A DNA stretch of 64,000 nt from Gyrodactylus bullatarudis. Its lineage: Eukaryota; Platyhelminthes; Monogenea; Gyrodactylidea; Gyrodactylidae. The notes below the pieces were generated by a model. The model was not told where the DNA came from and searched no databases. It saw only the letters and a program-made list of their open reading frames with translations. Position numbers and translations under genes: made by a program. Positions 6,326 to 62,768 of this stretch are shown piece by piece (within the stretch, counting starts at the first letter, position 1; every line of letters starts with the position of its first letter). Location of the stretch: assembly GCA_012064415.1 (NCBI GenBank), contig SSNU01000270.1:1-64000 (forward strand), given 5' to 3'.

Positions 6326-9300
6326 CTATCATACAGAATATTAAAATTTTGTTTATCTCATATTGCGAAGCATTGAAATTATAACTCCGCTAGGTAAATT
6401 CATGTAAATTTAATTTAAAATTTTTCTTTTCGATGCAATAACCCTTGTGAGGAAAACATGTGTGTATTTAAATTATAATTTTGTCAACTTATGAATTCTA
6501 AACGTGGAAAGTTGAATGGTATGCTGAGAAACCTTCTAGATGCACATTATGTCCTAGATCGTAAAAATGCCTCGAATTTTCTGAAGACATGATAAAATTT
6601 TTTAAGTTGGTAATAAATTATAATTTATCCAATCATTGTTGGAACCATCGAACTGAAACAGACATCATAAAAAAGCAAATTTTCCCATGGTGCTCCTTTC
6701 ATGATGAGCTCACTACTTTTTATGTAAAACAGTCCAAAATATTTCAAGTGGTTATGTAGTGAGTGTCCATTGAACATTAAGCAGCGATTTGAAAAATTCT
6801 GGATACACAAACACGAAAGACATGACGGAAGAGCATTTGACACATGCCCCAAAACAAAATAGAAATTCATAGAATTCATTCGCGACGAAAATTGTCACCC
6901 TAGTGCTAAATCTCAGCTGAGTGAGGCTTGACCTATAAATTCTTAACTAGAAAAGTTTACCTCTAGTGATTCATACATCTTGTCTGTTTGATTTAAATTC
7001 GATGAGTAACGCAAGACTCGACAAAGTAATAGCACGCTTGCTTTCTATTAAGGTGATAGATAGCCGGATTTTAAACATTGGATGAAAATCAAGAAATCTA
7101 TCTTCTGGAACTTTCTCTAAAGCTAGAAGAAAAATTTTGGGCCACCATGATGCAGTTTTTATTCACCTGATAAAACCATGCTAATTCGAAGGTGGAAATT
7201 ATTATTTTTTCTGTGTTAATCAAAAGGTGTTAACAAATGTATTGTTTTCTGATTCTAATGAACTATTCATTAAGAGGATTTAGAAGACGAGTGAATATTT
7301 AGTTATAAAGCTTATATTTCACCGGTTCTCATCAGACTATTACACCGGCTAGATATATATAGCAAAATGTTTNTGAGATCAGGTATAAGTTTAGTTGTTC
7401 TTGGCAGTATCTGTAGTTTGTGGCCTGGGAATGCTCTCTTAGTTATTTCAAAGAGCTTGTTGTTCAATATTTGGTGAGCTGCATCCCCTTTGAAGGGAAC
7501 TCTCAAGTAAATCGGGGTGAGCTCCTCAATCTCTTTGTCTGCTTTTGCTTTCAGATTTGAGTATTTATCAATAAATGGATAGCCGTCCTTTATTAATAAT
7601 TCTCTCAGTACCTGTTTATCTTCTTTCTTGTAAACTTCTGAAGTTAATCTTTCTATTTTCATGTACTCATTTCTCACAAGACTCTTCTTTTGACACACAG
7701 GACTGAAACTTAGAAAAGGCATAAACTGCGTTGGCACTGATTTCTTCCTATAGATTCTTGTCTGAGCAGTTTCATTAGACTTTGTTACCAACACATCAAG
7801 AAAGTTCAAGGACATCTCATGTTCGTCTTCCTTTGTGAATTCGATACCGTGATGCATTGAATTCAGTTTTTGTAGAGTCGATTCGACATTATTGCTTTCC
7901 TCCAGGACGAGAAAGGTGTCATCAAGGTAACGTGTGTAAAAACGAGCTTCACTGATTAGATCATTCATTTGACAACTTTCAAGAGAGGCAAAAAACAGAT
8001 CCGCGAGGAGGGGCCCGATAGGACTTCCCATTGCCACACCGTCTATTTGCTTGAAGTAACAGCCTGCAAATTTAAAGTCAATATTTTGTACCGTCATTAA
8101 AATTAATTCTGATACAATATCTGAAGGAACACTGCAAATAGAGGGAAATTCATTAAGCTTGTTACTTATAAACTTAACTGTTTCTCTCAGAGGGACATTT
8201 GTAAATAGAGAGCTAACATCGAACGACACCATTTGTGTTGACTGAAAATTGACATTTCTCAGTTTATCGACAAATTCGGCTGAATTCTTAACTGAATATT
8301 TACAAAGTTCATTCCTTAAAGGAGTCAAGATTTCTGAAGTCGGAGTAATAATTGAACCCAAAGAGCAAGTAGTTGAAACTTCGTCTCATTATGATCAACT
8401 CCAATCTTCTGCCCCAACAACAATTATGATTGAGAATGAAAGTGCAAATACAGAAAAGTCAACGGTCGTTGATAATCGAATTAGTTCTCAACCTATAATT
8501 AGCAGTATCGGAAATGTGAAAAAGGCTGCACCTGCAAATGGTAAAAGAGGTAGAAAACGTAAAAGTCTCAGTGGGCAACCAACATTGGACAGATACGTAA
8601 AGAGAAAGCAATGATCATGGATACAGACCATCTACTCTGGCCCCCTTTCCTTCAATACTCCAAATTAAAAGAACCAATCAGAGGATTCCGATTTTTCAAA
8701 CATTTTGCTATATATATCTAGCCGGTGTAATAGTCTGATGAGAACCGGTGAAATATAAGCTTTATAACTAAATATTCACTCGTCTTCTAAATCCTCTTAA
8801 TGAATAGTTCATTAGAATCAGAAAATATTTTTGAAGAAGCTTGGCAATACTTCCCAAACAATCAAAATGTATTGTTATTTATATCATACTCGTTACTTCT
8901 ATATAAAATAAATAGATCTCATTTAATTTTTTCAACATATTTTCAGCTAAATACAAGAAATTCATATATGTAAATGTGATTAATAATATTTTAATGAAAA
9001 ATGATTTATATTAAAAATTAAACTTTTAACTAAACTACAAAATTGGTTAACCCATGTCTTAATAGCTAAAACTCTGATAAATGATAGAAAGAGAGCTTCT
9101 CCCAGCAAACGTGAACCTACAGGAGCTGGGAAAAGTGCAAGGTGTCACTCTTGTCCAAGAAAGTCAGAAAAAAGACAACAGACTTGTCAAATTTGTGAAA
9201 AATGTCTGCAAAGATCACAGTATGATTTGTTTAAGACCTGCTATATTTAAATAAATTATAATATATAAATTTTTTTGATGGGGATCGAATCACTCCCCCA

Positions 9301-12300
9301 GATGCTTTCAACGTTTAAAAAATCCTCTTCTAGAAATTACCATGTGTGTAGTAATAGATTTTTTTCTAATCTAAAGTCATAAAAATACCTGAGAATTGAA
9401 ATATCAACCATCTTATAGGCTAGGTTTGGATTCTAAACATAGCTCAATAGAATTGAGACAAAGGTAGATTTTAAGAACACACTTTTGCATTGTGCTGGAG
9501 CCTGTTTCTCCGTAATGATAACTATCGGTTCAGAATATGGTCCAGTCACTGATTGATGAATGGCCAGTACACGAAAGGAATATTCAGTTGACTCTTTGAG
9601 ACGAGAAATCTTGTGAAATGTATGATAGCCTTGATAAATTGTCTGCCAGCTTGATGAGAAAATGAAATAAATTTGAGAACATTTTTGAATTGAAAAACGC
9701 TCTTCAGATTTAATTTTCAAGAAGAAAATCTATTTCAAATGTATAATGATTTATATCCAGACCATGAGAATCAAACTTTGCGTTCAAATAACAGCATTCA
9801 AATAGAAAAAATGTACATGTTGTTTCACGAATATTCAGAATAAATCAAGCAAATCAATATCTGAAATAATTCATCCTTGTTGTAATCTCAAAAATTGAAA
9901 TTATCATACATGATGCATCCAATCGTGTATAAAATTGATATTACACTTACCGACAGAAATATCTTTAGTTAAAGAATGATTTGATTACTTTAAAAGCAGA
10001 ATTTCGGCATTATTTCTCATCGTCATCCAAACGGTGATTGTTTTTACACAGGCCTTTCTTATTTATACCTCCGTTTAGATGACAATTTTTAAAACTTTAA
10101 ATACAGGTTAAACTACTGTAAAGGGAGAAAAGTTTCATTGAAAAGCAAGAAGCCAGTGAAAATGTGAAATGAATATAAGCTGACTCGAATTCCATTATTT
10201 TTTATGACGCAGAAATGATTATGTAACTAAAAAATTGATTTTTAAACATTGATGAGAGTTTTTAATTTCTCTGCTAATTTGATATCTAAGGATATCATTA
10301 TAGGTCAATAGGCTAGGGTGAAATTTATTTTTTCTCCGAACAACTCTCGAGAGGAATTACTTTTCTGATAAAATTTAGTACTCAGATAATGTTTTCCATA
10401 ATTTTAAACCGTGAAAGTCATTCTCCTTTATTTCATTGCTCATTTTTCCCACAATATCCCACGGAAATGATAAAATAACGAAATTAACCATGAAACCATG
10501 ATGACAAGATTACTATTTTTGAAGATAAAAATTAAGAAACTCATTGAATGACCAAGATATTCCAGATTTTAGGGATTGCTTACTAAAAATTCATTGAAAA
10601 TTGAGCGGCGATTTGAAAAATTCTGTATTTTTAAAACCGAATGACATAATGGAGAATCATTTTCGACACATGCTTCAATACAAAATAATGCTTAGAATTG
10701 ATAGTTCTATCAGAAAAGTTGGTCCTAATATGAGGTTAAAAATTTCACCCTAGGCTATTGGTCGATAAGTCTGGAATCTGACCAATTGTATTACATTATT
10801 TTACAGCATTTTAAAGATTACATCTCATCGAAGGCACCAATCACCATGTTTGTGCAATCTCATTTGTAATTTTGGAGGAAAATATGCATATAAAATATAT
10901 TTACCTTGATGGATTCTTGCTGTTTGAGAGCATTTGTAGGACGTAGAAGTTCTTGTTTGAATGGATAGGAACACAGTTTGAGTTAACTTTAACGTTCAAG
11001 TTTGTATAGCCATCTTCACCTATTAAATAGTGGGAAATATTAAAAATTGAATAAGGATAATATAATTGAACATGGAATAAATACATTGTGATACAACACT
11101 TTTTCTTTTTATAGAATGAATTTACCATTAAATTTATTAGTTGAAGAACTATTACTGCTTGAGCACAACCATTTCAATCGAATGGAATCTGAGGAAATTT
11201 TAGTTGCTTCCAATATTGGCTTTGATGGCAAAGGTGGCGGTGTTATGAACTTAAAGCCTCCCGAATACGGTCCAAAGCCAAAAGAATTTTTTGCGCGAAC
11301 TCTTACTCTATACAGGGAAAAATGCTCATAATTGTTGATTTGAGTTGTTCAATAAACTTACTGATACCGTGAATTCGGTCTTAAATAGTCAATGTTATAC
11401 TCGATAATGTTTTTATCGATAGAAACTTCTTTCACATTTGCTGGAACGTCGATAACTTCAATGGTAGTATCGTCTGTCAGATCTATTTGCTTAAGTTCCA
11501 ACTGATATGCTAGATAGATTTTCAAATGAAAAATTAAAATCACTGGTCAATTATTGTGAGTATATCAAATGTTTCTTTAAAATCTTTATCATCTTTGTTC
11601 TTTCATTCTTGAGTTGATCAGAAAAAAGGTTGATACTAGAATCCTCAGTCATGATCTTTCAAACATTTCACAAAACTAAATTTCAAGATTTCCGAATCAG
11701 TGAAAAATGATCTAAAAAAGTCAACGGAAGTTGATAATCAAATTGATACCCAACGTGTAATTCTCACTGAATCAAAAGTGTGCAATTAAAAAACGAGGAG
11801 TCAAAAGAAAAATATGTAGCGGGCAGTTACAACTGGATTCCTTTCTCAAGAAAAGACAATGAACTCAGTGAAACCCTACCCCTCCTCCCTTTAATATTCT
11901 TTCAATTCCTATTAATCCAATCAGAGGATTTTTCATTATTGTATGTATAAATATCAAGCCGGTGTAAGAGTCTGATGAGAACCGGTGAAATAAAAGCTTT
12001 ATTACTCACTTTATTTATTCACTCGTCTTCAAAATCCTTTAAGAAAGGAATATTTCTACTAATTCAGATCTAAAATAAGTTTCATAATAAGTAAAATCTA
12101 TTAAAACTTAGATCAGTATTAGAATTCTCAGCCATGGTCATCCAAACGTTTCGACCGTGATTGTCTTCACTCGCCTTCTTCATTGGTACGACAAGTTTAT
12201 CAAAATTGAGAATTCTAATTGACCTAAGTTTTAATAAATTTTATTATAAAACTAAGTTTCAATATTTTTTTCACTGAGATCAAAAATCTTTTTCTTATTT

Positions 12301-15300
12301 CTTAAAGTATACGTGTATAATTTATTCGAATCTAATGAATAGAATGTTAGCTTTTATGGTTTTTAATACAAGATTTAACTTGAATATCAAAATCTTCAAA
12401 AGTCACACATGAATGTTACCTGAAAAGAAAATATTGCTGAACCTCTCTTTTAAAATATTGCGAAATTATTGGACAATTTTTCGTTATTAGAGGAGACATT
12501 GACAAAATTAGTGAGCAAATTAGTGACTGAATTTCACAATAATTTGTATTTAGACTAATAACACAAAGCAATTTATCAAATTTCAATAGTTGGTTTAATA
12601 CTAGTTCAGAATTATAATAAAAAATAAAGTATTAAATCTAAATCGTTGGTTCTCTTCAGAGCACAGATATATATTTACATTCATTAACCTTAAAAATGAT
12701 ATTCTATTGTCTACAATTTTTTCGGAAAATACCACTTGATGTCACTATGAGAAGGAAATGAGTAGATTAATGAATTCTTACAAGTGATCTCAGCTCCATT
12801 CGAATCAGGTTCATGCCAAGTTATATTGATGTTTAGGTTAGAAGATGTACTTTCTGGAGAAAAATCCAAACAGGGATTAGCCCTTGGCCTGTTTGTCGTT
12901 ACTAAAAGACTTGATGGTTGATCAGGACAACTGCCAAGGGTTGTACATATTGAAACGGGAGAATATTCCGAAGAGCCTTGATTGTTGATTGCACAGTAAC
13001 GGAATTTACAAATCATTGCAGACTTGACTTGGTAGAGATCAAAGAATAGTTCCGGCCCGGAATATATCTGGAACGTGTTTTTTCATTAGTTGAACTCTTA
13101 ATTTAACGCTTAATCAATTAACATTGAAAACATAGATCTTCAAATGATGTAACTCGATGTGTAATAAGACTAGATTTTTAAAATTTTCATTTCATCAATA
13201 TTTTTTCTTATGATTTTGTATAAATCATTTTAAAAGTCTAAATGAGGACGAAACGCGCATTCATGAACCAAGAAATCCTAAGAATAAAAAAGTTCATTTG
13301 TAACTTATTTCAGATCGTTTTTTATTGTTGAATGGGTAAAAATAAAATTTCGGCTCTATTTTCTCAGCATCCAAAAATTAATCTTTTCCAAAAATTTGAA
13401 CAAAACTCGAAATATTTCACACTATTGAATAAATTATATGACTTAGCATTAGGCCATACCCTTTCCAAAATTGATCATTTTCGAGCATGACTAAAAATTG
13501 AATTCCTGAAATCTAATCCTAATGTGTCCTTTAATTTGAAGATTCAAATATTCACCTAATTTTTCAAATACGTCCGAGAATCCACTTAAAATAATATTCG
13601 GAGATTTAGAAATAAAATATATATTAAAATCAGATGTACATTTCTTGAAGTGGTAATTCTTCAAAAATGATATAAGTTAAGAACTCATTAGAGATAATAG
13701 TTTACAAATTATGAAAGAAATAGTAAAAGTCAGAGAATATCAGAACATAATGAAAGCTGAAAAAACACCAAAACTCTCCAATATATAGCAACAGTGCAGA
13801 GAAAAGTAACTCATATCATTTTTAAAGTATTGTCACTGATGATGCTTTATGAAATGTACACATGGCCCTAATATATAATATCTTATTTCTGAATCTCCTA
13901 AGAAGTGATAAGTTAAAATCTAGCTAGGAATTTCATCTGTACTGATACATTGGTCAATCTTTGTTATGTGTGGGGCTTTATGCTTATTCTAAAGTTGGTT
14001 GATACCAAGTTGGAAATATATAATTTTTACAAAAGTCTTGATTTTTTTATCGAGAATTCGAATTTTTTAAAGATTTTCTGGAATTTGGAACTCATGTTGA
14101 ACACTTTTAAGAAAAAAATACCTTTTTTATGAAAATTATAATTATGATCATTTTTCCAAATATCGAGTTGGTACCAAATCCCATTTTTAGAACTTTGAAC
14201 CGCTAATTTTTATTGATTTGAAAGTGGTAATAAAAAGAAGTTGAACAAGAAATTTGAATATCACCGTCAAATTTCTGACAATTTCATCATTTTCGAGGGA
14301 ATTTGAATTATCGAAGTTTCTTTGATTATCAAGTAGTGAACATGATCAAAAAATCAAAAGATCATAAGATTAAGCATTGGATCAGATTTAAGATAATTTA
14401 TTTTCTCGTCTAATCTTGAACCTAAAAAACTTCTTTTGACTACCCTCCAACATTCAAATCAATGAAAATTTTCGGTTCAAAGTTCTAAAAAATGGGATTT
14501 TGGTACCAACTTGATATTTGGAAAAATGATCATAATTATAATTTTCATAAAAAAGGTATTTTTTCCTAATAATATGGTAAAAGTGTACAACATGAGTTGG
14601 ATTCCAGAAAATCTTCTAAAAAATTCGAATTCTCGATAAAAAAATCGAGACTTTTGTAAAAATTATAGATTTCCAAGTTTATATCAATTAGCTTTAGATA
14701 CAGATTGTTTAAATCTTCTTCTAATCCTTTTTCCCTCTTGTGTAGAACTACTAGTCGAATCAAAATCAATGACTGGGCTCTTTTTGTACACTGAAATACT
14801 CCAAAGATTAAATGAGGTTAGTACCTTAACATATTTATAACACAATTCAAGCCTGCAGATACTGAATGTTTTATTTGAAAAAATCTGTGTCAACGATATT
14901 TGCAGTTCAATATGGAATAACATTTAACTATTCAGATGATTTTAATTAGCGGAAAAAGAAATGGAAAGAAATCTGCACCTGCATTAACTAAGAAGGACAG
15001 AAAGCGTAAAAGTCTAAGTGGGCAACCAACAATGGATAAATACGGACTGTTCAAGTATCTAAAATACTTGATAAAAATCAAAAAAGGACCCAAGGGTGCA
15101 AAGGGAGTATGATAGATTTGTGGAGTTGGTCCATTAGCCTGTGTATTGGACTTTCAATGCTCACGACCCTGGTACGATTCTCTGCAACGTTATACCGAGT
15201 AATGTCAATAAAGATGAAACGTATCTATAACTGACATACATACGTCTTATCTCTAAGGCGGTAAAAATGCTATTTTTGCTATTTTTAATATGTTCATGAG

Positions 15301-30300: not shown

Positions 30301-33300
30301 GAAATGTAGGAAAAATTTGAAAGATCAATCAAAGGATGCATTAGAATTGAAACATCTCCAATATTCGCTCAATTTAACTATTTCAATTCAACGTAATTAT
30401 TCAAAGCTAAAGTTAATAAAGATGAACATTTTTTCATTAACAACTCGGAAATAAGTTTTTTGAAATCCAAAAGACAGAAGAGAAAAATAGGAAGAGTCGA
30501 TTTTTTATTATCTCGAGATCATAAATAGCTAGGTACTAATTAGTAATCAATGATGTATGCTACTAAATTATTAGACTAATATTCAATATGTATTTGCTTA
30601 GAAAAATGTGTTCTCTTTGCTCATTACATGATTTCAAAGATTTTCGCTGCAAATTTAGGATTATTTCTTGGCAGTGCTTAAATTTCTTAATGAATTCATG
30701 TACTTTTGTAAATGATTTTGAGCTATTCGAACATGAGTATGATGAGTATGTCACGGAATAAAAGCGCTATATTCTTTCTAAATTTAATTTAATTTTTTAT
30801 CTCGACATTGGGAACAATTTGAAAAGAAGAGGATGCAATCAAAAGCTGGAAACCTCCTGATTTACTTTTTATCATTTTCTAAACTTAGACTTTGGCCTAA
30901 GTTTTTTGACACCAAATCTAAGTTTAGAAAATGATAAAAAGTAAATCCAAGGGGTTTTCCAGCTTTTGATAGCATCCTCTTCTTTTTCAAAAATATTTGA
31001 TGCATAGCTTTAGAAAGTGTAAATTTGTTAGGCCAAATGATAATATTCGCATATATCACTGATACATTCTGTCAAAAGACTTAGACCATTTGATAATACA
31101 ACGAATAGATCTTAGACTTTTCAAAGCTTAAAATTACTTAACCTCTTTAGTCAAATACGAATTCTTCGTCTAATAATGATTCAAAATGTCAGTATTTAAT
31201 TGCTTCAAGCTTTCGAAATCGATAAATATGCAAACGCCTGCTTGATATTTCTTAATTAAGAAGATAACTGGTTTTAGAACCAAAAAATGCCAATTTTAAC
31301 CTCTATTATCTTTGAAATGATAAGTCGGCTTACAAAAAGAATTCAGATTCAGAATTAGCATATTATTTTGGTAAGGTTAGCAGTTATCTAATTTGTGTGT
31401 TGAAAAAAAATAATTTGGGACATGAAGGATCATATTTTTCATCATGTATAGGAGTAAAAAGTCTTACTTTTAAAATATTTCTTTCTACTCCTCGCGTGAG
31501 TTTCTGAGGATTGTACTGGGCTCTTTTTATTGTCAAAATATGCCTTTTGGCCTTTTGTTTTATCAGGCAAAAGCAATTTCTGAGTGTCGATGGCTAAAAG
31601 AAATTTTTAAAGAAATATATAGATTTATAATTTCACAGGTCTGACTATCAATGTAAAAGATCTTGCCAGAGAGATTTCTAGAAACCGAGAGAATTTTCTA
31701 GTACATTCTTGAATGAAATGTAACCAATAGTACAAGGTCCTGGACTTAGTTATGCTTCCTATTCATCCTTATACAAACACATGAATGAGATCACTACTTC
31801 TGAAAGTGTTCAGCTCAAGTTTCTAGCATTAAAGTATCTTAAAAACATTACAGATATAAAATTTGTTAGTCCAAACTACTTTTATCACTCTAATTATTCT
31901 GATTAATATAAAAATCACTATACTTTTTATAATCCTTGTTCTTTAAGAAACACTACACCTTTCTCTCCCCTTTCTTTTTCTACAGATAGACCAATGCAAG
32001 CCAGAAGACAACACAGTCAGGTAGCAAGCGAACAACGTAATATTGAATCTATGCCGAACAGCTCCCTGAGGAACTACTTGGTTCAAAATTATGATCAAAA
32101 ATTTAAAATAATTTTTTTTCAACCAACATGTTTTGATTTAATTGATAAATTACTCACCTTTCTTATCGTTGGATCCATCAATTTTGTTGTTGACAAGTGA
32201 CAGGGTATATTCCAAATCAATCTTATAGATAAATGAAAAAAGATGTCTTTATCAAATGAAGAATACGAGACGTTTGGATTAAACAGGCATCAAATCAATT
32301 GGAGATTCAGATAATTATTATAATTATTCTGAATCGATAAAGAGAAGAAAATAAAATCAAGGTTATAAAACTATTCTACTCAAAATTAGACCTCAAGAAT
32401 CAGGAACTATATCTAAACCTAGCTAATATGAAGATTTTTTCATCAAGAAAATATATATGATCAAGAATTATTTGGATCGAGATCATGAGGCCCGCATAAA
32501 GAAAAAAAATTTCAAATTATTTGAAAATTGTCCCAACGAAAAATCTAATTTTGCTTTTTCAAGATGATAGGGTGATTCTCAAAACCTGATTCAGCATATT
32601 TGATTTCTATGTCTGATTTTCATTAAAATCAAATTTGATCATTCTTTTATTTTGTAAACAACAACAAATAGGAATTTTGCATCAAAACGAGAATTGCAAC
32701 ACAGTTATGCCATCATTTTCTTACAAAAATAGATTTTTTCAAATTTTTCTTCTTCAAATGATAAAAATCGGAAACATAAACTTGATCAAATTAGTTTTCT
32801 TGATGAAAAACTTGAGAAATTTTGTAAAAGTCATAAACCTCCATTTTCATTAATAGAATGGAGTATTAACTAGGCAAGTAAAAACAATATCCATTGAATA
32901 TTATACAGTAAATAGAATATATTATAAAACCACTTATAATTAAAAAATAAAAGTCCATTTTGTGAGCCTATGGGCATCTAAACTATCCAACCAATTTCCC
33001 TGAAATTTTAACCAGTGATAGATTACCCATTGGAGCATGTTTGTAGTGAAAAAGAATTTCTAGATTTGGTCTCAGTTGAGCCGTAATCTTGATTAGAACT
33101 GAAAAAGTGGCTGACCAATTAGACGGCTTTATTTTTAACTAAAGCTTGCTCCCCATTGGTCCAATTTAAGTTTCATAGAAAAACAAAGCTTAAAATCAAA
33201 TAGTTAATTCCTATTATTTATTCATCCAGTATTGAAAAGCTAGTATATCTAAATACCGATGAATTGCTTGAAATGGTTTCTCAAGTCTTTTTCAAACTTG

Positions 33301-36300: not shown

Positions 36301-39005
36301 ATTATTTTAAATTTTCTAAATCAATAAGATTTAATCAATCGTTTGACTGAACCTTTGAATCAATCTATATATATGAGTTGGTTTCAACAAAATTCATTCC
36401 ACTTCAGAAAAGTAAGAGGTTTCTTAAAAACTAGAATCAAGATAAAAATTATCTAATTATAATCAAGACTAATTTTTTTTTTAACTAATTAATTCTGAAA
36501 TAGAGTCAGGTGGAGAAGTTATTTTGAACAAGGTAGTTTTCTCAATCCTACTCTTCTAAAAGTATATACATTCTTTCGAGTTCCAAGAGCTACCTACTTT
36601 TTGCCTTTTTATAGGAAAATTATTGAATTAAGTTATCAAATTTCTGATGTACAAGTCTCACTTTTCAGTTAATTTTATGATTGGATCGGAACTTTTTGAT
36701 TTTGCAAACACCTCCGGATTGTAAAATTGAGTAAAATTACATAAAAATGTCAATCAAATGCAAGATTAAAGCAATTAAATGGCAAGCACATTCAAATTAT
36801 CAAATATACAGTGAAATACAAGTAATTTTTAGAAATGAATCTTCTTTTTTTGAATGATCCGAGAATAATTGCAAATGAAATAAAACGTGCAATTCTCACT
36901 GAGTTAACTTCTGGTAGTGTATGTGGTGTTGGAATAGTAAAGTTTTGGGTATTCAAGAGGTCGTAAAAATTTAGACCACTAATTTCAGTAAAGCTTTGGA
37001 CATAGTACTAAATGAAAAATTAAATCAGTAAAAATTAATAAATTGGTTAGAGAACAACAAGCGAATATTTGAGTTATAAACGTTATACAGCCCCAGCAAA
37101 CATTACAGAATTGGCAAAATGTGAAAACTCAACAGCAGTTGATAACACAGGGGGTCATGAAAAATTCAAAAAAAGTTAAATGGGAAAACTAAACTGATTC
37201 AGTTGTAAAATTTTGCGCTGATCCCGGATCTTTTCTCAGATCTGAAAAATTCCTTATAATTTCTGAGATAATTGGATTTGGACTGACCAAAGATCGTCTT
37301 TCCACAGAAATAAGGTACTATTAACACTTGTCAATACTAACGTGATCTATTCAAGCTCTTCTCTGATTGGCTCATTTTAATACCTATGCCATAATCATGA
37401 AATTTTTTACTCATGAATCATGAGTCATGATATATGTAATTACAGGTGTTAATAGTAACTTATGACTGTGGAAAAACGATCTTTGGTCAGTCATAACTCG
37501 TGTAAATAAAGGTCTCATACGACATCAAATCATTCATTTTGAAGGCCAAACCAAGAAGATTAACTGTTTCATTTGGATTTATCGGATATTTTTTGGATCG
37601 ATACGTTCCAAAATTTGAATTTGAATTTTTATATTTTCTTGATCTACTTATAATCAAATAACCAGTCAAACTGTAATTAGTGATAAGAGAGAAAGGAAAA
37701 ACTGCTCGATAACCAAAAGAAAACGAAAAGGGTACAGTTACAAATTGATAACTTTCTCAAAAAGCAAAAGTAATTACCAGATGAAGAGATTAATTTTTAA
37801 CCAGTTTTCCAACCTTCCGAAAAAGTTGCAATTTCTAAATGAACCAATGGAAGGTCTCAAATATTTGACGAAACGTTTATCACTCAAATATAAGCTTGTT
37901 TTTATCTAACCTTCCAAATGAGTTTAGAATGAAACAATAATATTCTTGATGAGGTTCGACAATATTATCGTACAAATAGTTTGGTTATTTTTCAAACTAT
38001 ATACAATACTGTACAATGTACACATCTATGTGCATAATATCACGTTAACTAATGATAATATAAATGTATGTTATCCTATTCTTTTATTCATTCCAACTAT
38101 TTGGTAGATTCTCCAAATGAAAATATTTCTCTCAACCTTTATTAATAATTCATCAAATACGATTCAACTGAAATAATAAAAATAATCTTTCATAGATTTC
38201 TGACTTAGATGTTACGCTATTACAATAAATAATTATAAGAGTATGTTACAGTGTAGTAGATAATTATAATTATTATCTATGATGAATACTTTGTATCAAC
38301 TGGAAAAAATGACGAGAATGGGTTATTTTAAACCAACCAAGTTGTTAGTTAAAAAGTTCCAAAATTCACATCAAGTAATAACAGAATTAATTCCTAGAAC
38401 ATACAATTTTTTATACAGAAATCTAAATTAGCCTGTAGTGTATGGTAATCATTCAATCAAAATAAATCCTCACGGATTCTTCTTTATAATATGAGCCAAT
38501 GCAGGTTTATCAAAAAATGAAGTTAATTAATAACTCACTTTAATATTCTCACTGTTGGGTATTGAAGCATCATATCCATCAGAATTTTCCTGATCTGATT
38601 CTATTTTTACACTTTTACAAGTTTTTTTGTCAAATTTATCAGTTATTGACCGATAAGCAGATATAATAACATGAGTTAGAATGCCATCATCATCAACAAT
38701 CTGTTGAACTAGATGACCTGGTGGTACTTCCATTGGAATAGCTGAAGGTGGTCCTCTATTACTGATCATACGAATAGTCGCGGGACCTTCAATTTATTAA
38801 ATTATTTTAAAATATTACCAGAGATGTGTTGGACTCTATCTCCTCTTCCGACTGAAAATGTTTCTCCTGCTTCAACATGAATTAAGACGTAATATTCTTT
38901 AGAATTAGGTGTTTTATTATTTTTGTTATTAACAAAAGTTTCACTAGAAGCATTATTATCTATAGATAGATCTCCACCGTGAGAACTTTCGTTAAAGATT
39001 GACAT
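4514..39005 (-). CDS. FNDC3: FNDC3-family fibronectin type III membrane protein
   Basis: Twenty-two exons chain with compatible phases: 39005-38819, 38786-38539, 33738-33459, 31593-31468, 27838-27669, 27335-27154, 26400-26112, 23796-23678, 23335-22957, 21366-21069, 19623-19356, 18580-18265, 17924-17631, 16336-16103, 13067-12782, 11509-11362, 11307-11126, 11019-10905, 9649-9483, 6325-5777, 5105-4873, 4729-4514. They sum to 5286 nt, or 1761 residues; vertebrate FNDC3A/B have about 1200. Residues 38-110 carry the FNDC3 N-terminal signature (VEAGETFSV, HISGPA, VPPGHLVQQIVDDDG). A low-complexity stretch follows, then nine FN3 modules, each with the characteristic hydrophobic-W strand (FSIKW, LLVAW, FELLW, ISLKW, IFIQW, INITW, IRLKW, VTLEW; the first lacks W). 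Near residues 1725-1748 is a C-terminal transmembrane anchor after RRKSFSD. Vertebrate relatives are ER/Golgi-anchored with roles in adhesion and spermatogenesis. Exon 11 (19356-19623) adds a segment without vertebrate counterpart. The least certain junctions are the donor at 33458 and exon 4. Confidence 0.93.
7374..8361 (-). pseudogene. PLE reverse transcriptase fragment
   Basis: About 330 codons show the PLE-type RT order: VSFDVSSLFTNVPL (motif A region with D), DGVAMGSPIGPLLADLFF (motif B), YTRYLDDTFLVL (catalytic DD in YLDD), then MSLNFLDV and the thumb segment to LPRTTKLIPDL. The YLDD box and MGSPIGPLLAD are diagnostic of Penelope-like RTs, which copy element RNA at a nicked target. The N-terminal part of the protein, the GIY-YIG endonuclease and the tail are missing here: the frame runs straight into the left terminal repeat. 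The visible RT core is uninterrupted, so the copy is fairly young, but it cannot act alone. Confidence 0.9.
8358..8614 (+). pseudogene. PLE ORF C-terminal tail with basic stretch and PIP-like motif
   Basis: This is the plus-strand arm of the inverted dimer. It reads about 85 codons ending KRGRKRKSLSG then QPTLDRYVKRKQ and stop. Diverged copies of the same tail are at 62440-62684, 11700-11870, 14955-15046 and 37700-37772. In the 62.4 kb copy the tail follows the GIY-YIG start (KGVIYLFKCNCGSSYV) across a deletion, so it belongs C-terminal to the endonuclease. The end fits QxxΨxx(Y/F), the core of PCNA-interacting PIP boxes, behind an NLS-like basic run. Function is inferred only. Confidence 0.75.
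8674..8825 (+). promoter_or_regulatory. PLE terminal repeat: CCAAT box, TATA-like run, hammerhead-like core, ORF start
   Basis: In order: AACCAATCAGAGGAT (8672), TATATATA (~8710), CCGGTGTAATAGTCTGATGAG, ACCGGTGAAATATAAGC, then ATGAATAGTTCATTAG at 8801. The block recurs at 11908-12030 and in part at 42716-42798 (minus) and 62700-62768. A CCAAT box 30-40 bp before a TATA-like run suggests an internal promoter, as expected for an element that must rebuild its 5' end. Confidence 0.5.
9070..9250 (+). pseudogene. piggyBac-like transposase C-terminal Cys-rich fragment
   Basis: The frame ending at 9250 reads LINDRKRASPSKREPTG, then ARCHSCPRKSEKRQQTCQIC, then EKCLQRSQYDLFKTCYI and stop. The spacing C-x2-C-P-R-K ... 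T-C-x2-C-x2-C ... C resembles the cysteine-rich domain ending piggyBac-family transposases. Nothing upstream extends it into the DDD catalytic core, so only the 3' end remains. TTAA-bounded piggyBac-type MITEs lie elsewhere in the window, so such a transposase has probably been active in this genome. Another Cys-rich protein cannot be excluded. Confidence 0.55.
9483..27838 (-). CDS. FNDC3: FNDC3 exons 5-19: FN3 module array
   Basis: Fifteen exons from NSKIEDVDVNRKRRDW to QAPAQCK encode FN3 modules 1-8 and the linker into module 9. Typical FN3 features recur: a W in strand B, a GG or NG turn before ITxYRLE-like strand C, an L...YxFRVxAxN strand F, and a following GxGPYS. Several modules are interrupted by introns in mid-domain. 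The exon at 16336-16103 has no in-frame ATG and was found through its splice sites and WDEVTNINGGRIIEYRLE. Introns hold the PLE, hAT, piggyBac, mariner and foldback copies listed separately. Confidence 0.9.
11700..12030 (+). mobile_element. Decayed PLE tail plus terminal repeat
   Basis: KKSTEVDNQID...ILTESK, a one-base frameshift, then KRGVKRKICSGQLQLDSFLK followed by KRQ and stop at 11869. Next come CCAATCAGAGGAT, TATAAATATC and the hammerhead-like block AGTCTGATGAGAACCGGTGA (~11970), then CACTCGTCTTC as in the 8.8 kb copy. Despite decay, the C-terminal Q-x-x-L-x-x-F-L motif is intact. Confidence 0.75.
12072..12262. repeat. Foldback with GTTTCGAC-type loop
   Basis: The arms TATTAAAACTTAGATCAGTA and its near reverse complement at ~12215-12240 enclose GTCATCCAAACGTTTCGACC. 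A second copy is at 30165-30290 and a remnant at 10017-10060. On the minus strand the loop reads GTGAagacaaTCAC..CGAAACG, a small hairpin before a CGAAAC box like the right half of a hammerhead core. No CTGANGA box is present. Confidence 0.55.
13236..13270 (+). ncRNA. Hammerhead 3' half from a SINE remnant
   Basis: GTCTAAATGAGGACGAAACG followed by CGCATTCATG. This matches the right half of the SINE hammerhead at 60972-61015: stem II GTC/GAC, GAAAC, short stem III CGC/GCA and TTCATG. The CTGANGA half is absent, so it cannot cleave by itself. It shows that the family is dispersed. Confidence 0.6.
13755..13830. repeat. Dispersed ~70-bp repeat
   Basis: GCTGAAAAAACACCAAAACT CTCC... with AGCAACAGTG...GAGAAA recurs at 20232-20300 (same orientation) and inverted at 26540-26600. 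There is no coding potential and the class is unknown. Confidence 0.5.
13986..14700. repeat. Foldback element (~715 bp, long inverted arms)
   Basis: The left arm ATTCTAAAGTTGGTTGATAC...ATCGAGAATTCG and the right arm are reverse complements over ~180 bp, with a poorly conserved middle. The motif TATAATTTTTACAAAAGTCT near the terminus is shared with the foldbacks at 41971-42480 and 45219-45707 and with fragments at 21710, 49730 and 50405. No ORF that makes sense is present. Confidence 0.8.
14955..15046 (+). pseudogene. PLE C-terminal tail remnant
   Basis: GKKSAPALTKKDRKRKSLSG followed by QPTMDKY, then the copy is broken. It is closest to the 8.5 kb copy (GRKRKSLSGQPTLDRY). Confidence 0.65.
15254..15493. 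mobile_element. hAT-type MITE with 8-bp target duplication
   Basis: The 240-bp element starts TAAGGCGGTAAAAATGC and ends TTTTTTACCGCCCTA. It is flanked on both sides by CTTATCTC (246-253 and 494-501 within 15.2-15.5 kb). TAGGG-like termini and an 8-bp duplication are hAT hallmarks. The interior is rich in GCTATTTTT. Related copies start at 40661, 42853 (end fragment) and 20828. No transposase is present. Confidence 0.85.
16382..16802. mobile_element. piggyBac-type MITE, second copy
   Basis: Left end TTAACCCTTCATGTCCCATT. The decayed right end TTTGGGACATGAAAGGTCAA has lost the perfect TTAA. The interior matches 3593-4095 in reverse orientation. Confidence 0.7.
16895..17160 (-). mobile_element. 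LINE 3'-end fragment
   Basis: The minus-strand reading ends with IMSHIRSKLDYT, the conserved C-terminus of the window's first LINE family (compare IMNHLRSKIDYTKTLLYPDL at 54.8 kb). The rest is frameshifted. It lies in an FNDC3 intron. Confidence 0.7.
19828..20120. mobile_element. piggyBac-type MITE, variant family (partial)
   Basis: Left end TTAACCCTTTAAATCCCAGA. A similar terminus, TTAACCCTTGAAGTCCCAGA, is at 62113. Both begin TTAA-CCCTT like the 3.6 kb element, but the interiors differ and a matching right end was not found. Confidence 0.5.
20828..20998. mobile_element. hAT-type MITE relative
   Basis: TAGAGCTGCAAAAATGCCAT on the left and TTTTTTGCCCTA on the right give imperfect terminal repeats of the TAGGGC(G/T)G type. 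No duplication is visible. Confidence 0.45.
21613..21680 (+). ncRNA. Degraded hammerhead-like segment
   Basis: CTGAGAATGGCAC, a loop TTTACTATCTCACT, then GTACCGAAACG and AGAGGCTTTGG. The same layout occurs at 44706-44765, where the stem is intact. Here the CTGANGA box lacks a base and stem II is broken. Confidence 0.4.
23911..24440 (+). mobile_element. Repeat family with SEEEY ORF start (copy 1, inverted junction)
   Basis: LTSEEEYNMYSKYC is encoded twice in tandem (23941 and 24155). The first copy is cut short by an inverted piece of the family's 3' part (ATTTTGAACCAAGTAATTC). The second runs into an Asn/Tyr/Ser-rich ORF ending SLRNT, then a 5-bp deletion relative to the 31.8 kb copy breaks the frame. 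CTGATTGGTTTAATGTTTTG lies before it, as at 43975. Tandem and inverted joins resemble PLE debris, but no RT was seen, so the class is unknown. Confidence 0.5.
25415..25843 (+). mobile_element. Internally deleted mariner element
   Basis: The terminal inverted repeats TTAGGTTGAGCGAAAATTAA and ...TTTTCGCTCAACCTAA are each flanked by TA, the mariner target duplication. Total length is 429 bp against about 1.3 kb for a full mariner. It is non-autonomous and sits in an FNDC3 intron. Confidence 0.93.
25543..25764 (+). pseudogene. mariner transposase C-terminal fragment
   Basis: HPPYSPDLAPSDYHHFRSLK holds the mariner D34D region (third catalytic D in SPDLAPSDYH), followed by ALDDFF-like LDDFFGSKSEEFY and LPIRWQKCLNSSGNYF, then stop. 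The first ~270 residues are deleted. It would have come from an autonomous relative moving by TA-targeted cut and paste. Confidence 0.92.
28000..31400. other. FNDC3 intron, mostly unique AT-rich sequence
   Basis: Apart from the palindrome at 30821-30988, a foldback remnant at 30165-30290 and the piggyBac MITE remnant at 31190, I recognise nothing. Short minus-strand ORFs here lack domains and splice signals. Confidence 0.5.
30821..30988. repeat. Near-perfect palindrome (~70-bp arms)
   Basis: GAAAAGAAGAGGATGC...ATCATTTTCTAAACTTAGA is followed by a ~25-nt loop and its reverse complement, ending GCATCCTCTTCTTTTTC. Arms are more than 90% identical by eye. No target duplication was detected. It is a hairpin-forming MITE or a recent inverted duplication. 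Confidence 0.85.
31190..31433. mobile_element. piggyBac-type MITE, truncated copy
   Basis: The right half is related to 3593-4095. It ends AATAATTTGGGACATGAAGG and the TTAA is lost. Confidence 0.6.
31468..33738 (-). CDS. FNDC3: FNDC3 exons 3-4: low-complexity linker
   Basis: Exon 3 (33738-33459) encodes an Asn/Ser/Tyr/Pro-rich segment (YVGYPSYMYSSENF) in the place where vertebrate FNDC3 has its Pro/Tyr-rich region. Exon 4 (31593-31468) is a hydrophilic Lys-rich 42-codon exon between acceptor TTCTTTTAG and donor GTAAGA. I chose donor G|GTTTAT at 33458 because it alone gives phase 1, which both exon 4 and exon 5 require. The alternative GTAGGT four bases further into the gene breaks the frame. 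Exon 4 rests on splice sites and phase only, not on sequence similarity. Confidence 0.65.
31800..32300 (+). mobile_element. Repeat family with SEEEY ORF start (copy 2)
   Basis: FVSPNYFYHSNYSD, a stop, then YNPCSLRNTTPFSPLSFSTD continuing RPMQARRQHSQVASEQRN and SMPNSSLRNYLVQNYD, matching the 24.2 kb copy. About 45 bp after this reading frame closes, a new start MSLSNEEYETFG appears at 32241. An ORF end joined to an ORF start again suggests tandem element units. Confidence 0.5.
32411..32860. repeat. Foldback element, diverged copy of the 45.2 kb family
   Basis: CTAGCTAATATGAAG, TTTTCATCAAGAAA and GATCATGAGGCCCGC match the left arm at 45219. The region 32780-32855 is a weak inverse. A similar partial copy starts at 25066. 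Confidence 0.5.
33800..37270. other. FNDC3 intron, no supported gene
   Basis: This AT-rich sequence holds scattered small ORFs (for example 34310-34561 plus) without recognisable domains or splice chains. Confidence 0.5.
37281..37492. mobile_element. MITE with ~50-bp terminal inverted repeats
   Basis: GACTGACCAAAGATCG at the left and CGATCTTTGGTCAGTC at the right. The similarity extends inward through TTTCCACAG and TATTAACACTTG. The superfamily is not assigned because no clear duplication is visible. Confidence 0.8.
37690..37965 (+). mobile_element. PLE remnant: tail, terminal repeat and ORF start (subfamily II)
   Basis: The tail PKKTKRVQLQIDNFLKKQK and stop (37772) is followed by AACCAATGGAAGG, an AAATATAAGC segment and CTAACCTTCC, then the ORF start MSLE, stop, NNNILDEVRQYYR. 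The same order, TAACCTTCC then ATG, occurs at 61181-61345 (minus) and 61430-61530 (plus), and the start ILDEVRQYYRSKQL at 56602. Confidence 0.65.
38539..39005 (-). CDS. FNDC3: FNDC3 exons 1-2: start and N-terminal signature, 32-bp intron
   Basis: Exon 1 (39005-38819) begins at ATG 39005 and ends HISG with donor GTAATA. Exon 2 (38786-38539) continues PATIRMISNRGPPSA. The intron between them, 38787-38818, is only 32 bp yet has GT...AG ends and restores the exact FNDC3 motif (GPA...PPGHLVQQIVDDDG). This confirms both the family and the splice. Exon 2 ends with the strong donor GTGAGT at phase 0. The first ~35 residues are Ser/Asn-rich and not conserved. Confidence 0.92.
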
Positions 39006-42300: not shown

Positions 42301-45300
42301 GCCATCTCGAATTTTAAAATTTCTCTAAAATTTTCCAAAAAAAACTTTTTTCCAAATTTTTTTTTCTCAATTCAGTAAAAGTGTACATTTTGAATCAGTT
42401 ACGAAAAAATTTTTCAAAAATTTCGATACCTTGATGAAAAAATGAGATTTTTGTAAAAATTCAAATTCATCGAGAATAGCTTTATAAGAAAATTGAATTT
42501 CATGATTTTAATTTCTGTTCAATTTTGTTATTTCACTATGCCTACAAAAAAATTTAGGGAAAATGGGGAATGCACGACTATGCATGGGATTGCAGACGAA
42601 TTTTCAGTTATTTTAGATCTCACACATCATTGTTATCAAAATTATATGTGGAAATTTCACGGAAAACTTTGATTTATAAAAAGCTCAAAATTCGTTTCAT
42701 CTCTAATATTTAGTGATAAAGCTTTTATTCACCGGATCTCGTCAAACTATTACACCGGCTTGATATTTATAGTAAAAATAAATAAAATTTACAAGTTTCT
42801 CTGATTGGTAAGAATTTTATTTAATAATATTAATATCTAACAGCAATAATAATTAGGGCGGTAAAAGTTCGCAAAATCTTAAATTTCAATAAGTTTATCT
42901 ATCTATCTAAGTTTTTGTATCCGAATTCAAAATTAAATCATTTTTAAGAAAATTTTACGTGTTTTATAAAAGTTCTTTACACATCTACTACAGCCTATCA
43001 AATAATTATCTTGTCCAGGACTTGTTTCATATTTTGAATATTCACCTCTCAGCGAATCCAATTATGGGCGGATTGTGTAAATAGCCAGAGATAAAAACAA
43101 GAATGTGATTGACCTTATACCTGAGTTTTTGATGAATTCACTTACGGATGATTCGAGTAAGTTGTTAAGATTCTGACATATTTCCCATGAGCAACAGGTG
43201 AGAATATTATCCATGTAAAGTGTGAAAGGAAGCATTTTGTAGAGGACTTTGAATATTTCTGAAAATTAAAAAATAAATTAGACTATATTTTTAATCGTAA
43301 AAGCCTCAAAAAAATAATTTCTAATGATTCTAATGATCACTATTAGAGCACTGCTTTTCTTCTGAAGGATTTTTTAACTCACAGTAGTGTGTTAAACTCT
43401 TGTAGATAAACCTGAATTGTTGATTCCGAGTCAGATTAAGAAGACAGAAATATTCGTATAACAAGAAATAGAATTGGTACAGTTGACATGGCACAACATT
43501 TAGAATTTTTTATTTGAAATGTATCTACTAACAACGTGAATTATCTAAGATTTTGGAATCTGTAGAAATTAAACTAAATCTAATATTAGGATTGTACTTT
43601 CCCGGACACCTTTCCGGAGGGTAGAGGGAGAATATACCTATTTGTATATCGCATATACCGGGCAGGGTAGAACAAATATGTTCAGTGAACATTGTCTGAA
43701 CACAATGTAACACAATAACAATCATAACTCCAGTTCCTAAGCAGGTATTTAAGAAATTTAAAATATGATTCCGACTCAAATTTTAATTTCTACAAGATGG
43801 TCAAGGTTTGAAATAATTTATAAAAATTGTGATTTGAATTATTTTATTGCAGTCTCTTGAACAAGGTTGATCAATGTGTTTTGCAACGGACTGTATAATA
43901 AATAAGATGAGTAAATACAACAGATGGTTTTTTTTCGAAAAGCGAATGAAGGGAAAGTATAGTCCTACCAATCTGATTGGTTTATTGTTATGATTGGTCA
44001 CACAAGGTAAATTTAGTCTATCCCAATGAAATACCACAAGGTTCAACTTTTTTCGGGTAGATTAAATACTGACTTTAATTGAATCATTGTAGCTATTATA
44101 GCCTAAAATGTAGTTTTATTTTAGAATAATATCTTAGAATAGAACTTGTATTGAACTCATTTTCAAGTAGAAAGGAGCCATCAGCTATAGAGCTCCTTTT
44201 ATCAGGAGATAACTGAATTATGAGCTGTGTGGGAGTAAACTAACCAATTTGTTTTGTAGAAAACTCCTCGTCTACGATCACGTCTTTGCAAATTTTTGAA
44301 TAAAGCTGAATAAGAGACTGAGCATTAATGTTATTGAGGACAATCCATCTGGCCAATACTTCTTGGATTATTTCTACAATGATAAAGTAATTTACAAGAA
44401 AGTTATCGCTTCTATGCAGTTGATTGGATACATAATACCTCGAGATAGAAATACCTTTTTAAAATTTTTTTTAACCAATGATATTTGAGAAAAGTGATAA
44501 ATTAAAATATAAAAGCTCATGAAGAAGAACAGAACAGGCTCTGGAAATAGGTACAAATGATATTATCAAGGACAATTTTGGTGAAATCGAAAAAGGGAAA
44601 AATTGGAGCATTTAGTTTTGAACGGTTTTTCAGATTTGGACCTATAGGAATTGTTAGGTTTTTAGATAAAATTGAAGATAGATCAATTTACAAGCTTCTC
44701 ATCAACTGAATAAGGTACTTGACTATCTCAGTACCGAAACGTCTGGAAGAGGCTTTGAAAAAAGGTAAATTAAATTCCAATTAAGTCTATTTTTACTAAT
44801 ATTTATTGAAGAACAGAATAAAATTGACTGAGAATTTCTAAAAACTTGGGCAGTCTCATGAAAATTAATAAGGGTCAGAAAAAGGTAGACTTTTCAAGCT
44901 TATCAAAATTATGATAATAAAAAGACTAACTTCTTCCATTAAGAATCAAGAGTTTGAGATTGACTTTTGACTTGAAATAGTTTTTAGCGATGAAGCCGCT
45001 GACGTTATCATGAGTTAGATTCTTTTCTTTGTCGTAAAACCCTTTAGAATGATGATAAATAAAAGCGTAAAAAGTTGTAAGAATCATTGTTAAATGTAAA
45101 CGATTATCCAATAGAGTTTGGATTGCTTTTAGTTCCTCGGTATTGAAAACTTGCAGTAATTCTGGATTTTCATCCTAAAAATAAGAGTTGAAAAATTTTT
45201 GACGATCCAAAAGTACACCTAGTTAATATGAAGATGAGAATTTATGATTTTTACAAAATTCTTAATTTTTTCATCAAGAAATCTAATTTGATCAAGATTT

Positions 45301-54763: not shown

Positions 54764-55843
54764 TCAATAATGAAGATCTGGATATAAAAGTGTTTTGGTA
54801 TAGTCGATTTTAGATCTTAAGTGGTTCATGATAGATTTTATTGAATATAGATTTGTACAATTAGATAAGTCATATTTTAAATTGAGATAGTTGTAAAAGG
54901 TTAGAAGATAATTATTTTTAAACGATGCATTTCTTAAGTTATAGGATTGTTCTATTTTAATAGAAGATTCAGTAAATTGTTTAACAATAAAAGCGTATCT
55001 GCGAACCCATAATGGATTAAGACCCGACGATGAGATGCGGGCGTTGTATGAGTTTAAGTCAGGGAAAATTGCATATAAAAAATCACTTCTCTCGATTACT
55101 CTAGGTTGGTCATTGGTTAAATTAATAAGCAATGGTGAGATGTAGTCGAAATGGGATAGAACCAATGATTTAAATGCTTTAATTCTTAAATTAGGGGTTT
55201 TAGAAAATTTTAGGATTGCAAAAATCATAGATTTTATTTTAGGGATATTTGAAAGAGGATTAATTTTGAATTTTGAATTTAAACCGAAACCTAGATCTGA
55301 AGTGAAGGAGACGATTTCTCCAGGAAGTAGAAGCGATTCAAGGAGGGTTTCAGGAAGATCAGCTGGGAGCATAATTTTGCATTTATCTCTATTAATATAG
55401 AGCCCCATGGTCTCGAGTGAATCTTTAAGAAGAGAGAAATTATGGTTTATTTTGATAATGTCAAGGGAATTTTTCACCTTGAAAACGAACTTTAAGTCGT
55501 CTGCGTATTTGAAGAGGGCACCCTCTATACCCTCTGGAAGCTGAATATCAGCGAATCAAAGATAAATGAGAAGAGGACCGATCGGGGAACCTTGAGGGAC
55601 TCCAGAGTGTATTTCATCCAAGTTACTAGTGGTGCTGTTAAATTTGACATATTGTATTCGATTACAAAGAAAATACATTGTTAAATTGAGGATATAAGGG
55701 TCTATTGAGTGATCTAATAGTTTTTTCTTAATATACGAGAATTTGAGTCTATCAAATGCTTTAGATATGTCCAGATAGTGAATAATAATAAAATTTCCTT
55801 GACTTAGTAAAGGAAGGGAGTGAAGTTTTTCGTTATATTTCAA
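54764..55843 (-). pseudogene. LINE (non-LTR) reverse transcriptase, 5'-truncated
   Basis: Two minus-strand ORFs are separated by a frameshift near 55480-55555. The first (55843-55556) has the RT motifs HYLDISKAFDRLKFSYI (motif A D) and HSGVPQGSPIGPLLIYL (motif B). The second starts past the (F/Y)xDD region and runs through the thumb to IMNHLRSKIDYTKTLLYPDL and stop. On the DNA between them FKYADDLKFVFK can be read (55515-55480), so the catalytic box is present. It is a dead copy of a Jockey/CR1-like element. A 33-bp plus-strand LINE 3' end (55843-55876) abuts its 5' side. Confidence 0.88.
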
Positions 55844-61530: not shown

Positions 61531-61725
61531 TCAGACTGGAATTATAAATATTTTCCAGTCTTTTTAGACATTAAAGCTACTAGCAAAGTGTGGTCACTGG
61601 TAATTACTATATCCATGTTTATCAAACTTGATGGAGATTGTCTTCTCACACATAGATGTTGGAAATTCGGATATGCAAGTGTCACTTCCATAAAAGAGTC
61701 AAATAATATTCAAATCAAGTTGACA

Positions 61726-61764
61726 GATGTAGACACGTTTCGTCCTTATTAGGGTCAGTACACC
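61726..61764 (-). ncRNA. Hammerhead remnant, left SINE arm
   Basis: Minus strand: GGTGTA, CTGA, CCCTAATAAGG, ACGAAAC, GTGTC, TACATC. Stem I GGTGTA/TACATC is intact and GAAAC is present. Five bases after CTGA (the GANGAGT side of stem II) are deleted. Confidence 0.6.
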
Positions 61765-61811
61765 ATAGCCAGGATTCAAGCTTCTAACCACTAGGCCAGA
61801 ACCCTTGCTAT

Positions 61812-61846
61812 GGTGTATTGACGAATCCTAATAACGCGTCTACATC
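61812..61846 (+). ncRNA. Hammerhead remnant, right SINE arm
   Basis: GGTGTA, TTGACGAATCC, TAATAA, CGCGTC, TACATC. Here the left core box survives and the GGACGAAA box is deleted: the complementary lesion to the other arm. Confidence 0.6.
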
Positions 61847-62149
61847 TGCCACCGTGAGTTGAATATTATTTGACTCTCTTATGGAATTGAGACTTGCTTA
61901 TGCGAATTCTGACATCTATGTGTGAGAAGACAATCTCCATCAAGTTAGAGTTCATATGGATATAGTAATAACCAGTGACCACATTTTGCTAGTAGGTTTA
62001 ATGTCTAAAAACACTGAATTTTCCAGTCTTGTTTTCTAGCCCAGTCATTTTCACAATTAATGAATGGAGATTTTAGAAAATCAGTCAAACTGCAGCAATC
62101 AGGTATGAAATTAACCCTTGAAGTCCCAGAAAATTTTTTCTTTTCATGA

Positions 62150-62768
62150 CTCGCATTTAATATTATGTCCATCCATTTTTAATAAAAGATGGTTATCCTG
62201 AATCGTTCATTTTAAAGCATTCAAATATACGCGTGAAAGCTGATGCAGAGGTCAAAAAATTAACTCCAATTTATTGAAATAACCAAACGAGCATTTCCTG
62301 GTCATAAACTTCAGGTACTTCCCAGAACAACGAAATTAATTCCCGATTTGAACAAGGATTCAATTCCTTGGCTTGAAAGAAAAGGAGTTATATACTTGTT
62401 CAAATGTAATTGTGGTTCTTCTTACGTCTCAAAGTAATCAACTCAACCAATCAGCCCCTGTGACAACTACAATCGAGAGAGAATGTGAAAATCTCGAAAA
62501 GTCAACAGAAGTTGATAATCGAATTATCTCTCAACCTGTAATTAGCACAAAAGACTCCGGTCAGCAACATAAACCTGCTATTACGAATCGGGGTAGAAAG
62601 AGAAAATTATCCAAAGGACAATCAACGTTACACAACTACCTAAAGAGAAGAAAGATGCCACCACATCACAAAATTGTTCATTACTGAATCCGGGGAGTGA
62701 TTGAACCTATCAGAGGATCCCATTTCGGTTAATAATTTTGTATAAATATCGAGCCGGTGTAAGAGTTT
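62150..62768 (+). mobile_element. PLE copy with RT end, GIY-YIG start, tail and terminal repeat
   Basis: LIKDGYPESFILKHSNIRVK...KKLTPIY (RT thumb, internal deletion), the frameshifted FPGHKLQ region, then WLERKGVIYLFKCNCGSSYV (start of a GIY-YIG endonuclease with its CxC), a deletion, and the tail EKSTEVDNRIISQPVIS ... GRKRKLSKGQSTLHNYLKR to stop at 62685. CCTATCAGAGGATCC, TATAAATATC and GAGCCGGTGTAAGAG follow and are then interrupted by a LINE A/T tail at 62768. It is the only copy showing the order RT, GIY-YIG, tail. Confidence 0.8.
62440..62684 (+). pseudogene. PLE C-terminal tail with PIP-like motif
   Basis: SNQLNQSAPVTTTIERECEN ... ISTKDSGQQHKPAITN, then GRKRKLSKGQSTLHNYLKRR. QSTLHNYLK matches the PIP-like pattern of the 8.6 kb copy, although the rest of the tail is about half diverged. 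Confidence 0.7.

Follow-up and report, generated by a model that had tools for sequence, protein, structure and literature searches.

PLE fragments in the window

The window, i.e. the whole stretch of 64,000 nucleotides of Gyrodactylus bullatarudis DNA that was analysed, harbors PLE copies that are decayed 3' fragments and represent at least four subfamilies, judged by tail type. The first-pass annotation had listed five C-terminal tails, and all of them are present on the forward strand where it had located them. One example is the 3' fragment of a PLE C-terminal extension at 8354..8614 (+), where tblastn places residues 715-807 of the genomic copy L011 at positions 8333-8611 and the copy L030 at 8354-8608. 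The fragment terminates in KRGRKRKSLSG-QPTLDRYV-KRKQ-stop. Its NLS-like basic stretch KRGRKRKSLSG (8543..8575, +), a net positive flank that evolves in the family with an internal-branch omega of 0.27, precedes the PIP-box-like motif QPTLDRYV (8576..8599, +), which was assigned from its sequence and from the site-wise selection in the family.

An RT fragment of another PLE copy lies head to head with this tail on the reverse strand (7342..8352, -; Pfam RVT_1, E 3e-8; 77% to L011 residues 242-581). Both fragments are located between the two arms of a perfect, inverted-pLTR-like repeat of 128 bp (7245..7372 and 8698..8825). The layout resembles that of the Adineta PLEs with their inverted pLTRs (PMC3846280, excerpt). 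The sole N of the window, at position 7373, abuts one of the arms, and the fold-back may represent either a genuine inverted pLTR or an assembly join. The RT was rejected as a part of the same copy as the 8.6-kb tail given its opposite, head-to-head orientation; the locus alone thus provides no link between the tail and a PLE protein.

The remaining tails comprise the PIP-like sequences QLQLDSFL (11824..11847, +) and QLQIDNFL (37735..37758, +), each at the decayed 3' end of a PLE, and the cut tail QPTMDKY(G) (15023..15046, +), which leaves the PLE tail sequence past position 7. The fifth belongs to a more extended remnant. The end of an RT and the start of a GIY-YIG domain at 62176..62434 (+; tblastn to L011 residues 493-525 and 542-597, two frames) are colinear with an extension and tail at 62412..62687 (+), which belong to the same decayed PLE and include the PIP-like sequence QSTLHNYL at positions 62619-62642. 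The region 62176-62687 hence combines RT end, GIY-YIG start and tail in a single decayed, colinear copy that is spread over more than one frame.

Two further RVT_1-like stretches apparently stem from a different retroelement (54764-55555, -, E 0.0035, under the Pfam cut-off; 59751-60290, +, E 2e-15), and a host gene exon with similarity to the RAB3GAP2 N-terminal family is located at 49821-50357 (-, E 4e-11). Long imperfect palindromes reminiscent of fold-back elements (ca. 70-85% self-complementary) are found at 61556-62016, 45210-45714, 30818-30991 and 197-512. The Rfam scan of the window revealed no family at gathering score, and the tRNA scan led nowhere.

The tail is the C-terminus of the PLE protein

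With the RT of the window as the query, at least 124 matches were obtained in the host assembly (77.3 Mb, 471 contigs). RT, GIY-YIG and tail are united within one open frame in seven of 20 fetched copies (L010, L011, L012, L014, L016, L017 and L019), which documents that the tail is the C-terminus of the PLE protein. Examples are L011, L012 and L014 with 807, 798 and 784 aa, respectively, which end in GQPTMDRYV-[KR]RKQ. Together with the remnant at 62176-62687, these copies establish the earlier proposal that the PLE protein ends in a basic stretch plus a PIP-box-like motif. Among the downstream stretches of more divergent PLEs, the tail is readable in 12 of 20, in one case via a second frame, and the others are broken, cut or masked. 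L009, the copy on C258 and a near-twin of L010 and L011, has an open frame that ends in GRKRKKSKWADM, and its PIP motif is gone at the extreme end.

An open frame does not equal a complete one, as the frames start in parts that look 5'-truncated in comparison with foreign PLEs. The N-terminal part of the host's own PLEs was searched for but not recovered, being 5'-truncated or too diverged. The own frames (L161-L166 and the 5' parts of L010-L014) show no similarity to the initial ~75-185 residues of the foreign PLEs, and this mismatch may be due to loss of the 5' part, an N-terminus of another kind or an intron. In several PLE subfamilies, sets of three to seven matches are tied in bit score, suggesting recent bursts.

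The assignment to PLEs is based on an RVT_1 match and on the nested position of the own RTs in the phylogenetic tree among RTs whose C-termini align as GIY-YIG. The own VIY...YVGQT...KEH pattern aligns with P0165 and P0169, which both bear PF01541, and with flatworm PLEs; a Pfam scan of the own proteins returned no GIY-YIG match.

Distribution of the extension among PLEs

The RT tree (116 of 119 rows kept, 16 own and 100 foreign; midpoint root) recovers the PLEs of the host as one clade (100/100) that splits into the subclades A (100/95) and B (100/93). The neighbours of this clade include flatworm PLE RTs from Trichobilharzia, Spirometra/Sparganum and Dicrocoelium, and we take the nearest known group to be the Penelope/Poseidon PLEs, Perere-10-like, of flatworms. 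Its members share the architecture of an RT and a C-terminal GIY-YIG endonuclease with the own PLEs, but the relatives listed end 7-42 residues past the endonuclease landmark without a PIP-like tail. The same range was found for all scorable foreign PLEs, which end 7-42 residues past the LCxQK motif (53 of 76 proteins of at least 600 aa; the remaining ones are devoid of an LCxQK-type landmark), whereas the extension spans 126-236 residues in 14 own proteins (126-134 in A, n=9; 175-236 in B, n=5). Its linker consists of 75% disorder-promoting and 1.7% aromatic residues, and we infer a disordered-looking extension from composition alone.

The Q-containing motif is absent from the last 30 residues of all 223 distinct foreign proteins among the matches listed, which represent the best 120 of 664 plus the best 120 of 320 and include many fragments whose ends may not be native C-termini. 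A looser pattern without Q occurs in one of the 76 foreign proteins of at least 600 aa, and the notion of a tail general to PLEs was rejected on the basis of these two counts. Among the sequences listed, the tail is found solely in the own PLE clade. The simplest history is that the extension was probably gained once, on the stem of A and B.

A PIP-box-like register in two clades

Clade A was studied with 13 subfamily representatives, hand-picked by tail type and divergence, all of which exhibit the motif basic-Qxx[MIL]xx[YF][VLIM]-basic. Q1, M/L/I4, Y/F7 and V/L/I/M8 are present in 13/13 and D5 in 11/13, while positions 2, 3 and 6 display four, six and seven different residues, respectively. 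The net charge of the flanks is positive throughout, ranging from +4 to +7 for the 12 residues before the motif and from +3 to +4 after it. When dead copies are counted, 69 of 80 fetched A and A' tails match Q..[LIMV]..[FY][VLIMFY], and 11 have no match. The tails of clade B (e.g., NQTIDVFL, NQKIDGFL, TQKIQKFF, TRTLDEFL and VQTIDAFL) follow a Q-less pattern with I/L4, F7 and L or F8 in 18 of 20 fetched tails, dead copies again included, and F7 alone is retained in 19 of 20, with one tail masked. Position 1 is occupied by N, T, V or H in the fetched tails and by N and S in L039 and L041, and few basic residues follow the motif. The motif or its B form is still common to PLEs whose RT identity to the RT of the window is ca. 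44-57%.

The reading as a canonical PIP box stands for Q1 of clade A and for the psi residue at position 4 and the aromatic position 7 of both clades; it does not stand for position 8, which in clade A is V/L/I/M in 13/13 and never aromatic, so that the strict aromatic-aromatic motif is found in 0/13 A subfamilies, nor for Q1 in clade B. The suggestion of a degron-like tail was not borne out. TD at positions 5-6 occurs in 0/13 and K/R at +4 after position 8 in just 5/13, which disfavours a CRL4-Cdt2 degron according to the defining features of PIP degrons (TD, +4 basic; PMC6881253, excerpt).

A chance origin of the motif was rejected. Shuffling the C-terminal 130 residues of these 13 proteins placed Q..[LIMV]..[FY][FYLIMV] within the last 22 residues in 0.1% of the trials, compared with 13/13 observed. 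The tail is inherited, however, and 13/13 does not amount to 13 independent events; the site-specific selection described below is the stronger evidence. No PDB sequence was matched by the 24-residue tail in a phmmer search that admitted hits up to E 10.

Besides the tail, the extension has other conserved islands, namely STQ, SQP and T-x-V in the linker. In the stretch exemplified by L011:2761-3240:-, STQ and QP are present in 14/14, SQP in 13/14 and T-x-V around VDN in 14/14. Some B rows have TQTST before V-D, and these islands are putative short linear motifs.

Purifying selection on the tail

Site-wise omega values were determined by Fitch parsimony counting with Nei-Gojobori sites, a procedure that ignores transition bias and is applied here to small site counts. 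The A set comprises 38 of 60 fetched extensions (the rest had an early stop or none was found) and ten others, hence 48 in total, and 44 distinct, stop-free sequences were counted. On internal branches, the anchors at positions 1, 4, 7 and 8 have an omega of 0.20, compared with 0.95 at positions 2, 3 and 6, 0.27 in the basic stretch and 0.68 in the linker. The binomial probability for the anchors on internal branches is 0.0006 versus neutrality and 0.007 versus the linker rate. These values agree with the first-pass annotation, according to which positions 1, 4, 7 and 8 and the basic flank are kept while the surrounding residues diverge, and the pattern recurs in clade B. Freely varying anchors, which would have spoken against the proposal, were not observed: Q1 shows zero amino-acid changes on internal branches and one on terminal branches among the 44 A extensions.

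The contrast shrinks over all branches of A (0.20 at the anchors versus 0.56 at positions 2, 3 and 6; linker 0.66), because the latter three positions are low on terminal branches, too (omega 0.29). In clade B (22 of 25 rows kept, one of the others dropped as masked), the all-branch omega is 0.23 at the anchors versus 1.10 at positions 2, 3 and 6, and the residues ahead of the tail are under constraint as well (0.31). The A' subset (22 of 24 rows kept) exhibits a weaker contrast over all branches of 0.33 versus 0.59.

Pairwise comparisons of six close subfamilies resulted in a dN/dS of 0.17 for the basic stretch plus PIP and of 0.55 for the linker. The tail equalled or exceeded the linker in 5 of 2000 bootstrap replicates for the 13 subfamilies and in 1 of 2000 for the six; for the eight PIP residues alone the numbers are 21 and 52 of 2000, and the interval of the tail-to-linker ratio extends to 1.02 for the latter in the six subfamilies. 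The synonymous divergence of the six is not reduced in the tail (dS 1.0 versus 0.61 in the linker), which shows that the constraint acts on the protein. The anchor register of the PIP box is under purifying selection.

PCNA as the putative partner and alternative explanations

The host genome has one PCNA_N match in an uninterrupted frame of 261 codons at L029:1093-1875:-. Trematode PCNAs, at up to 81%, and tapeworm PCNAs, at up to 78%, are its nearest animal relatives, which makes a neodermatan flatworm the probable host. The binding pocket is lined by residues ~40-44, the connecting loop 117-135, 230-235 and 251-253 (PMC6881253, excerpt), and these segments are largely identical in the PCNAs of the host and four other animals. 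According to the same excerpt, 34% of the curated confirmed PCNA motifs are without the Q and 43% without one aromatic residue, and basic flanks strongly raise the affinity. Neither the aliphatic position 8 of clade A nor the Q-less start of clade B thus excludes PCNA binding, and both tails are plausible ligands in the light of these losses among confirmed ligands and of the flank effect.

Conservation of the tail could have causes other than PCNA docking. A bipartite NLS or a nucleic-acid-binding basic tail, with the residues between the basic clusters as a spacer, would account for the clusters conserved on both sides of the A motif (omega 0.27 on the N-terminal side; net charges), but in a mere spacer, positions 1, 4, 7 and 8 would not be retained and positions 2, 3 and 6 released in two clades. 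Clade B, moreover, still keeps psi4 and the aromatic position 7 despite few basic residues after the motif, and we regard this explanation as unlikely. Slightly less probable still is a motif that docks elsewhere, with a 9-1-1 subunit, a CRL4 adaptor or some other pocket that likewise prefers Qxx-psi-xx-aromatic as its partner. The aliphatic residue at position 8 of 13/13 A subfamilies and the N/T/V/H/S found instead of Q1 in B may reflect an optimum other than that of PCNA, and Rad1 and Hus1, which were cross-matches of the PCNA query, have PCNA-like folds. The departures nevertheless fall within the range of confirmed PCNA ligands, and the basic flanks fit the acidic surface of PCNA (PMC6881253, excerpt).

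The tail adjoins the 3' repeat, and some subfamilies look young (sets of three, seven and four matches tied in bit score), which could be taken to mean that it is the nucleotide sequence that is conserved, as an RNA signal close to the pLTR or 3' end, or that the copies just share a recent ancestry. This combined scenario is highly improbable, as synonymous divergence in the tail is at least that of the linker, the Rfam scan was negative at gathering score and the motif or its B form is common to PLEs at ca. 44-57% RT identity; a nucleotide-level signal was rejected on the unreduced dS. The interpretation that we favour, with a probability of roughly 0.7, is that the tail represents a PIP-type PCNA tether acquired once by the RT/GIY-YIG protein of these PLEs.

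A candidate sliding-clamp tether in PLEs

The PCNA-tether model, which is derived from sequence comparisons, would involve the following steps. The PLE protein with RT and GIY-YIG gained, probably once, a disordered-looking C-terminal extension, the end of which would consist of an NLS-like basic stretch, an eight-residue PCNA-docking motif and, in clade A, a second basic stretch. Q1 (in clade A), psi4 and the side chains of positions 7 and 8 would enter the pocket of PCNA beneath its interdomain connecting loop, with the basic flanks lying against the acidic PCNA surface. The tail would thereby hold the RNP on PCNA-loaded DNA, e.g., at replication forks or nicks. The tether could bring in the host polymerase delta, FEN1, RNase H2 and ligase for second-strand synthesis and repair and, by analogy with LINE-1, may help to complete the second strand.

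The PIP of p21 carries an aromatic residue at position 8. The C-terminus of p21 otherwise has the same arrangement as the A tails, with basic stretch, PIP and basic stretch in a disordered tail (PMC6881253, excerpt). It differs as a PIP degron with TD and +4 basic residue, as the A tails have no TD (same excerpt). Among retroelements, the ORF2p of LINE-1 binds PCNA, and this binding was reported to be required for retrotransposition and to recruit RNase H2 (PMC10830420, excerpt); its location is disputed between a PIP helix at residues 404-419 and a "PUB" wrist site (PMC7617806, excerpt). LINE-1 ORF2p resembles the proposed PLE tether as an EN/RT protein of a retroelement with a PCNA link, which is predicted for the PLE, but the LINE-1 site is internal, whereas the PLE motif forms the terminal tail of a protein from another RT/EN class. 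The pogo/Tigger transposases exhibit a PIP box in a transposon protein, as do the own PLEs with their PIP-like motif, but they are cut-and-paste DNA transposases without RT. Pogo is a PCNA interactor by yeast two-hybrid, and the functional relevance of the interaction was described as unclear (PMC5371812, excerpt).

PCNA docking is hence known for LINE-1 and pogo, and a dedicated terminal dock on a PLE would be new; we found no paper that connects PLEs with PCNA or a sliding clamp in the literature searched, which had most subscription papers outside its scope. If the model is true, it adds a further independent capture of the sliding clamp in eukaryotic transposons besides LINE-1 and pogo, with a Q-less dock in clade B, and indicates that clamp capture recurs across unrelated retroelements. 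The chances are about even that the radiation of PLEs in this host descends from an ancestor that captured the PCNA-tethering tail and owes its success to the tether. Both the high copy number and the apparent bursts would then go back to PCNA-loaded DNA as the site to which nicking by GIY-YIG and reverse transcription are coupled, and the tail-less PLEs represent a natural control. Transposition of PLEs is little understood, and what follows first-strand synthesis has yet to be validated (PMC11167929, excerpt). If the conserved tail docks on PCNA, the integration of PLEs would become accessible through a host factor.
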